From: a virus
DNA: 25,813 nucleotides
IMG/VR virus record: IMGVR_UViG_3300010151_000140
Coordinates: 1-25,813 of that record
Strand: one strand, 5' to 3'
Below, in pieces: positions 19,479-20,494 of this stretch (within the stretch, counting starts at the first letter, position 1; each line of letters opens with the position of its first letter). Below the pieces are notes generated by a model, which saw only the letters and a program-made list of their open reading frames with translations, searched no databases and was not told where the DNA came from. The translations under genes were made by a program, and so were the position numbers.

Positions 19479-19906
19479 CCGCTTTGATCTTCTTTCCGCA
19501 TTGACACAACTTCTGGCCCGTGCATCGTAATGCCCACGACACTAGGCGCAGAAGATTCCTCTTTAACAGGCTCCAAAAGACCAGCACTCTTTGCCAGCAC
19601 TCTAAGGACAGAGACTTTATCATGCATTTCAATTTCAAGAGTAGGTTGACCATCTTTGCTCCTTGTCACTCTTAGTTTCTTAATAGCCTGGGCCACTGAA
19701 TCCGGGATGTCATCGGACGCCTTGACCTTAACCTCTCCATTTTCATTCCACTCAATTACATCGGTTAAATTTGCCCTGGCGATGTCAATCAACGTCTGGG
19801 CAATACCCTCTTTGTTATGAGCAATCACCTCGCTTCGGCCGCGCAGCCGGTCCTCCAGTTTCTTCACACCGCCAAAGCGGCCGGTAGGATGCGGTGATCC
19901 GCTCAT
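19475..19906 (-). CDS. Probable terminase small subunit, short form
   Basis: A 143-residue protein starting at ATG 19906 in an ATGA overlap. Residues about 35-120 follow the C-terminal half of phage small terminases: IAQTLIDIARANLTDVIEWN, a charged loop, DDIPDSVAQAIKKLRVTRSK, then LEIEMHDKVSVLRVLAKSAG and LLEP. The usual N-terminal helix-turn-helix, which recognises the packaging site and normally contains a T..QA....GY pattern, is not visible. The frame is not open far enough upstream to supply it. It sits two genes before TerL. Small terminases select phage DNA for packaging. The missing DNA-binding part makes the call probable rather than certain. Confidence 0.75.
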   Translation of the reverse strand: MSGSPHPTGRFGGVKKLEDRLRGRSEVIAHNKEGIAQTLIDIARANLTDVIEWNENGEVKVKASDDIPDSVAQAIKKLRVTRSKDGQPTLEIEMHDKVSVLRVLAKSAGLLEPVKEESSAPSVVGITMHGPEVVSMRKEDQSG

Positions 19907-20217
19907 TCAATCACCCGTGTCGCCAGCAAGGCATGAACAGAATGGTGACCCAAATCGATGTTAATATCCCAGCCATCAGCGATGTATTCATCGTATTCAA
20001 AAGGGCTGATATATCGGGTCTCCATCTGTTTGAAATCGGTCACCACAGTAGTTACCGCTCTACGTTTTCCGCACTTGCAAACACGGTTGCAGAAACACCG
20101 GCCATTCAATAAACGAACAAACTCCGCATTGGCTTTAACCGGATCAGATATGCCGCCCTTCGGAACCCACTTAAGGCGTTCCGCGCTTTTCTTGCCGCCA
20201 CGGCGGCGCGATTCCAT
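19903..20217 (-). CDS. Small basic cysteine-containing protein, unknown
   Basis: A 104-residue protein from ATG 20217, nine bases after the frameshift-frame stop of the previous gene. A TTG at 20229 would overlap that stop as TTGA and is an alternative start. The N-terminus is basic (ESRRRGGKKSAERLKW). A cysteine cluster, CFCNRVCKCGKRR, near residues 45-57, could bind metal. The second half, KQMETRYISPFEYDEYIADG then WDINIDLGHHSVHALL, looks globular. It ends in an ATGA overlap with the small terminase gene. I do not recognise the family. Position suggests a link to packaging or replication, nothing more. Confidence 0.72.
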   Translation of the reverse strand: MESRRRGGKKSAERLKWVPKGGISDPVKANAEFVRLLNGRCFCNRVCKCGKRRAVTTVVTDFKQMETRYISPFEYDEYIADGWDINIDLGHHSVHALLATRVIE

Positions 20218-20225
20218 GCTGGCAG

Positions 20226-20494
20226 TCAAAACGGAATCTCGTCATCCAGATCAATCGGCGTGTCACCAGAACCGGCAACACGCCCAGTTACTTTTTTTCA
20301 GTGTACGGCTCCGCCATCATCACATCACAACTCAAGGTGCCGTCATCGCGTAGTTGTGCAATCGGCAAGGCATCAAACGTCAGGTTGAAACCATCCTTGC
20401 CAGACTTCCAAGGCCACGCCGCACCGATCTTGGTGCCGTAATCTTTCCCGTCCTTACCTTTCCGCATAACTTTCAAATCGTATCTTTCAGCCAT
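20226..20494 (-). CDS. Small SSB-tailed phage protein made by probable -1 frameshift
   Basis: The zero frame runs from ATG 20494 (CGGAGA upstream) to TAA at 20288-20290, giving 68 residues: MAERYDLKVMRKGKDGKDYG, then AAWPWKSGKDGFNLTFDALP and SCDVMMAEPYTEKK. This looks like a compact beta-rich domain. The zero frame leaves 60 unexplained bases before the next gene. Slipping back one base on A_AAA_AAG (20297-20291) opens 21 more codons to a TGA at 20226-20228, for 89 residues in all. The added tail ends DLDDEIPF, like the DDDIPF tail by which bacterial and phage SSBs recruit replication and repair proteins. It lies among replication genes, 8 bases into the MazG-like gene. A homopolymer error (A7 for A8) would give the same protein without shifting. 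The family of the N-terminal domain is not recognised. Confidence 0.8.
20257..20312 (-). promoter_or_regulatory. Predicted programmed -1 ribosomal frameshift signal
   Basis: On the minus strand, in order: GGAG (20312-20309); 11 bases; slippery heptamer A_AAA_AAG in the correct phase (20297-20291); an immediate zero-frame TAA (20290-20288); then, six bases after the heptamer, an 11-bp stem GGCGTGTTGCC (20284-20274) / GGTGACACGCC (20267-20257) with the six-base loop GGTTCT. All 11 positions pair, two as G-U. E. coli dnaX uses the same heptamer with a Shine-Dalgarno about 10 bases upstream and a stem-loop about 5 bases downstream. The functional claim is inference from this match. Confidence 0.7.

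Follow-up and report, generated by a model that had tools for sequence, protein, structure and literature searches.

Organization of the locus

The stretch of DNA analysed here, referred to throughout as the window, comprises 25.8 kb from a tailed phage, a fragment that encodes head-tail connector, major head, tail and internal virion proteins, a terminase large subunit and a Terminase_2-like small subunit. The small gene of interest lies on the minus strand, with replication genes on one side and terminase genes on the other; upstream of it are replication-initiation genes, an MT-A70 methyltransferase and a RusA-like resolvase. Its zero-frame ORF (20288..20494, minus strand) encodes 68 residues, the body common to the tailless and tailed products proposed below, and closes with the codons ACT GAA AAA AAG TAA. 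The slippery heptamer A_AAA_AAG (20291..20297, minus strand) comprises the last seven nucleotides of a GA7G string, in which the A7 run occupies 20298-20292 and the G stands at 20291. The zero-frame stop TAA (20288..20290, read as 20290-20288 on the minus strand) abuts the heptamer, as the first-pass annotation of this DNA had proposed.

A -1 shift at the heptamer would append the 21 residues VTGRVAGSGDTPIDLDDEIPF (20226..20291, minus strand; stop codon at 20228-20226) for a product of 89 residues. The acidic D/E-I-P-F tip found at the C terminus of SSB proteins is present here as DLDDEIPF, encoded in the -1 frame. The next gene (19903..20217, minus strand; likely start ATG at 20217) begins after the tail stop and not after the zero-frame stop, which agrees with the initial description of a tail of this length and ending that reaches toward the next gene. 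In five relatives (L003, L004, L005, L191 and L161) the tail stop codon and an ATG share bases, as TGATG or TAATG, which is expected if the tail is the true end of the gene. In the window, the part of the tail frame that runs from the preceding stop to the end of the tail contains no ATG, GTG or TTG, and the tail is therefore not producible from a usual start. Across the 8,076 codons of the 31 candidate ORFs in the window, in-phase V_VVA_AAG heptamers occur twice and just one, the site at 20291-20297, is followed by a stop, which places the arrangement beyond chance.

Conservation of the slip site and the tail

Among close relatives, L002 is 99.6% identical to the window over 7.5 kb and identical over the frameshift region. 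DNA identity to the window is 83–85% for L003 and 68–77% for L004 and L005, with protein identity in these three down to 90%. The sequence GAA AAA AAG plus a stop is kept in four distinct sequences (the window, equal to L002, and L003, L004 and L005); the stop is spelled TAA in the window, TAG in L003 and TGA in L004 and L005, and the tail lies in the -1 frame throughout. On the question raised at first pass, whether the run is A7 or A8, these divergent contigs, all of which read A7G followed by a stop, make A8 very unlikely. The chance that the three synonymous sites of the heptamer stay unchanged is 0.2–0.8 per pair within this clade, and heptamer identity there is weak evidence when taken alone.

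Synonymous divergence between the window and L004 is 0.62 per site. Over the tail, these two sequences differ by 11 synonymous changes and one nonsynonymous change when read in the -1 frame; read in either of the other frames, almost every change replaces a residue. The Sd/S is 0.67 for the tail in the -1 frame and 0.62 for the body, and the corresponding Nd/N values are 0.02 and 0.05. Judged by these substitutions, the tail is under purifying selection in the -1 frame.

A hairpin downstream of the slip site

A putative stimulatory hairpin with a 12-bp stem and a 4-nt loop (20257..20284, minus strand) starts 6 nt past the heptamer. The 11-bp stem noted initially, GGCGTGTTGCC/GGTGACACGCC, holds 11 pairs, two of them G-U; RNAfold extends it to 12 closed pairs at -20.4 kcal/mol, with a z-score of -3.9 against dinucleotide shuffles. 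In all six frameshift sequences (the four above plus L161 and L191) a hairpin begins 5–7 nt after the heptamer. We compared the folds of these six members and of twelve relatives carrying the tail in frame with those of synonymous shuffles that preserve the tail peptide. The frameshift members returned z-scores of -2.35, -2.48, -2.61, -1.91, -2.01 and -1.51, and the in-frame relatives a mean of about 0 (range -1.5 to +0.7). Fairly strong folds also occur in the in-frame L189 (z -1.5) and L010 (z -1.3), the lowest of the twelve, so that folding beyond synonymous shuffles is limited to the frameshift members only on average. The alignment of homologues suggested at the outset as a test of covariation found heptamer, hairpin and tail kept together, but the stem changes among the four close sequences are one-sided and preserve pairing; no compensatory double change occurs in them, and covariation is uninformative there.

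A Shine-Dalgarno-like GGAG (20309..20312, minus strand) lies 11 nt before the heptamer and may act as a further stimulator. GGAG or GAGG is found upstream of the heptamer in the window, L003, L191 and L161. The element is inconsistently conserved: L004 and L005 carry GGAA in place of GGAG, and several in-frame relatives possess GGAG too, from the same codons. While its presence at this spacing was noted correctly, it is not specifically conserved, and we set it aside as evidence.

Distribution within the protein family

The 89-residue product matches the profile of phrog_18187, the family to which it belongs and whose function is annotated as unknown, at 3.4e-07 and 31.6 bits over profile positions 1–94 of 94; the 68-residue form scores 25 bits. 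All 12 members tested match this profile. Scans of IMG/VR retrieved about 30 distinct family members, most of which carry the tail in frame with no slip site and end in DDEIPF, DDDIPF, DREIPF, DDHIPF, DEMPF or similar. The tail is therefore the rule in this family and the frameshift one variant of it, and two forms are not generally needed. In-frame homologues lacking a slippery site had been named beforehand as evidence against frameshifting; they make up most of the family, while the arrangement in the window's own clade stands.

Beyond IMG/VR, the INPHARED phage collection returned no match to the close family. A distant member in Methylophilaceae phage P19250A ends in an in-frame TDLPF, and genome contigs gave only weak, partial Caedibacter matches. 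L195, L196, L197 and L198 end in NDDPFGLPDV, with residues after PF, so that the Phe gripped by SSB partners is no longer terminal. L193:1095-1337 (+) carries the tail in frame together with an A7T run (A_AAA_AAT) close to the corresponding position, and might represent an intermediate.

The body itself has no Pfam match at E up to 1, PF00436 SSB included, and 24 members of the family have no Pfam match. A pattern search retrieved two phage proteins ending in PIDFDDEIPF and PIDLDDEIPF, the latter SSB-like; an SSB profile seeded with the former gave no useful alignment to the body. PF00436 SSB is also absent from nine contigs that carry the family, which may be fragments. An AlphaFold2 model of L186, examined for an OB fold, is beta-rich, with a pLDDT of about 90 in the core. 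Foldseek ranked SsbA structures at the top for this model, weakly (E 0.26, TM 0.27), and a second look at the fold with VIA returned nothing above Z 2.6, where a Z of 5 or more was sought. Searches of solved structures gave no confident match; the sole significant fold match is an unnamed viral protein, R9TH26. The gene product may be a small protein associated with ssDNA or replication, with a tail that would dock on host SSB-binding proteins.

Recurrence on other protein bodies

To find further instances, IMG/VR was scanned for A6G followed within 20–50 nt by DD[DE]IPF and a stop, which yielded 106 stretches. The tail frame is open through the A run in nearly all distinct loci analysed. Among these loci, a tail reached by a -1 shift alone with a zero-frame stop abutting AAG is found in the window group, L161 and L150, and none has the opposite phase, with the tail reachable by the other shift. 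L133, which also fits the pattern, was rejected as a frameshift site: the frame that holds its heptamer runs on to a distant end, and no stop adjoins the heptamer.

L161 (MADRYELKTVRQGSDGKTYW...GDAGKK) belongs to the family but is divergent; in it, A6G is followed by TAA. Its hairpin, GGGGCGCGGC..., differs in composition from that of the window and begins 6 nt on; the -1 tail reads VTRGAADVSAPLNDLDDEIPF. In L191, G_GGA_AAG is followed by TAA and by a hairpin and tail of the L004 type, whereas the body resembles that of the in-frame L192–L194 group. Identity between L004 and L191 is 88% upstream, 91% over the tail cassette and 91% downstream, as compared to 65% over the body; the body has therefore been exchanged, leaving a different efficient heptamer in the same phase. 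Of 64 heptamers in E. coli, the three that shift most efficiently are C_CCA_AAG, G_GGA_AAG and A_AAA_AAG (PMC4066793). Comparison of L191:3001-3276 with L004:3001-3270 places the swap in only the roughly 200-nt body, with a recombination edge at the slip site.

In a tree of the bodies, the frameshift members fall in three places with four changes, and a single clade is rejected (AU p 3.6e-6). The predicted frameshift arrangement is therefore carried by three bodies, those of the window group, L161 and L191, the latter two each represented by a single contig. With a recombining cassette, three bodies are shown, not necessarily three origins.

Possible parallels in SSB genes

L150:385-830 (+), known from a single contig, is an unrelated 126-codon SSB-like gene distantly similar to Staphylococcus Rountreeviridae ssb. 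Its 3' end reads AAA AAA AAG TAG, and the -1 frame continues as VVENQPEIIDDFDDDIPF, ending DDFDDDIPF; no strong hairpin comparable to that of the window is found there. In Andhravirus ssb genes, the run preceding ...PIDISDDDLPF is A8 with the tail in frame in Andhra and Pontiff, A7 in St134 and PSU3, where TAG follows and the tail lies in the -1 frame, and A6 in S-CoN_Ph30 and Ph32, whose tail is out of frame in the opposite direction. We treat L150 and the Andhravirus genes as a lead, with homopolymer error possible, and not as evidence for the window. Run length varies across the Andhravirus ssb loci L210, L218, L219, L220, L209 and L216, and annotation drops the tail in several. In L215 and L226 (S-CoN_Ph17 and Ph35), the ssb region holds many short fragmentary ORFs, suggesting uncorrected homopolymer errors.

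Discussion

The heptamer, the adjacent zero-frame stop, the hairpin and the -1 tail are kept together across diverged phages. From these sequence comparisons, we regard the -1 frameshift signal of the window clade as real, of a known type and maintained by evolution, and consider it very probable that programmed ribosomal frameshifting yields both a tailless form and one tailed with an SSB C-terminal tip (SSB-Ct). Most ribosomes would terminate at the TAA after A_AAA_AAG, giving the tailless form of 68 residues. The hairpin 6 nt downstream would pause a fraction of them, which would move back by one base at the two lysine codons and translate 21 more residues ending in DLDDEIPF. We infer that this slip occurs on the ribosome rather than in transcription and that both forms are made. 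The tailed form could then dock on host SSB-binding proteins while the tailless body acts without recruiting them, and the slip rate would set the number of tails per complex; our confidence that the slip rate controls the ratio of tails is clearly lower than that in the frameshift itself. The initial proposal of a dnaX-type -1 frameshift appending an SSB-type tail is thereby upheld by the heptamer and stop, by purifying selection in the -1 frame and by a hairpin beyond coding constraint, but not in its Shine-Dalgarno element; its fixed ratio of forms and its control of the SSB network stay conjectural.

Were the tract truly A8, through a sequencing or assembly error, or were the gap in frame a recent mutation, the tail would simply be in frame, as it is in most homologues, and homopolymers are error-prone. 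However, A7G recurs in four diverged sequences on separate contigs, the zero-frame stop is maintained as three different codons, L161 and L191 share the arrangement without an A7 run, and 0/38 contigs carrying the A8 pattern match the family. Because A7G and the stop are kept and the tail changes are synonymous, neither an error nor a recent mutation can explain the data, and we consider this reading highly improbable. Scarcely credible is an untranslated tail, conserved as an RNA element such as a terminator or regulatory hairpin: a strong hairpin does follow the zero-frame stop, but no T run comes after it, substitutions are synonymous solely in the -1 frame, conservation extends past the hairpin to the DLDDEIPF codons, and the tail stop of five relatives shares bases with the following ATG.

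RNA polymerase might add or drop bases on the A run, such that a mixed mRNA population encodes both forms; the window clade does have A7, and A6, A7 and A8 all occur before the SSB tail of the unrelated Staphylococcus Andhravirus ssb genes. Functional transcriptional slippage usually involves longer runs, An with n above 7 (PMC3711429), and the steady hairpin spacing and in-phase X_XXZ_ZZN heptamer suit ribosomes. Since the run in L161 is just A6, and the corresponding position in L191 holds G4A3, a G_GGA_AAG heptamer devoid of a long homopolymer, transcriptional slippage is disfavoured and appears improbable. Alternatively, an old frame-disrupting change may have been rescued by chance slippage, leaving the tailless form functionless. 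Given how common the in-frame tail is in the family, the tailless form may be of no use, and V_VVA_AAG heptamers slip at about 0.3% even without stimulators (PMC4066793). Against such compensatory frameshifting, all six frameshift members have a hairpin beyond coding constraint and the arrangement survived a body swap and a heptamer change in L191, both of which suggest selection for efficient shifting; we judge it unlikely.

On programmed frameshifting as the preferred reading, a broader proposition suggests itself, that phages have repeatedly placed an SSB recruitment peptide behind a -1 site (on three bodies and in some Andhravirus ssb genes), with the slip rate setting the number of tails per ssDNA-bound complex. 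We advance this as a tentative possibility, about which we are more doubtful than persuaded.

SSB-Ct is a docking peptide in bacterial DNA replication and repair, and the number of tails per SSB complex is a long-standing biochemical variable that is normally altered by mutants only. Should tailed and tailless forms arise from one mRNA at a set ratio, tail number would become testable in a phage, with the slip rate amounting to translational dosage control of the SSB interactome, and close relatives with an in-frame tail offer a built-in comparison within the family. The well-known cases of frameshifting in tailed phages mostly concern virion and assembly proteins; the present case, if true, would be a use in the replication module. 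Gene callers that halt at the zero-frame stop miss such tails, as the annotated St134 and PSU3 ssb genes suggest.

What is new is the apparent use of a known type of signal to switch an SSB-type tail on or off a small phage protein, which we could not find described. No report of frameshifting used for an SSB tail was found in the open-access literature, where absence weighs little, and the term SSB is absent from the accessible portion of the Atkins 2016 recoding review.

Comparison with known systems

Like bacterial SSB, the window product has a linker leading to an acidic terminus, here DLDDEIPF; SSB genes encode that tip in frame, whereas here it follows a -1 site on a body with no Pfam SSB match. 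The acidic tip of SSB is described as docking at least 17 proteins (PMC7145534, PMC10018359). The ssb genes of the Staphylococcus phages St134 and PSU3 are alike in ending TEKK or SEKK at A_AAA_AAG followed directly by TAG, with ...PIDISDDDLPF in the -1 frame; they differ in their unrelated body, in having close relatives with A8 and an in-frame tail or with A6, and in records that carry no description of recoding.

As to the signal, E. coli dnaX shares A_AAA_AAG, the downstream stem-loop and, in the window, the upstream Shine-Dalgarno-like GGAG, but its shift gives the shorter product, whereas that of the window gives the longer, and the Shine-Dalgarno element is kept inconsistently in the window's family. 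The closest signal architecture is that of OrfA/OrfAB of IS911, an IS3 family element, with a Shine-Dalgarno-like GGAG upstream, a stem-loop downstream and a longer shift product. The longer IS911 product, OrfAB, is made by frameshifting. It differs in being a transposase and in having a three-way junction as stimulator (PMC5009743); A_AAA_AAG and A_AAA_AAA make up 72% of the heptamers in IS1/IS3 elements (PMC4066793). Two further systems, lambda G-T and T3/T7 gene 10, are alike in belonging to tailed dsDNA phages and in a -1 shift near the 3' end that places an interaction domain on a fraction of the protein (PMC5009743); they are unlike in being structural or assembly proteins, none of which gains an SSB-type peptide. 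The longer frameshift product had at first been noted as a contrast to dnaX; lambda G-T and the T3/T7 coat protein make longer forms (PMC5009743), as does IS911 with OrfAB, and a longer product is therefore not unusual.
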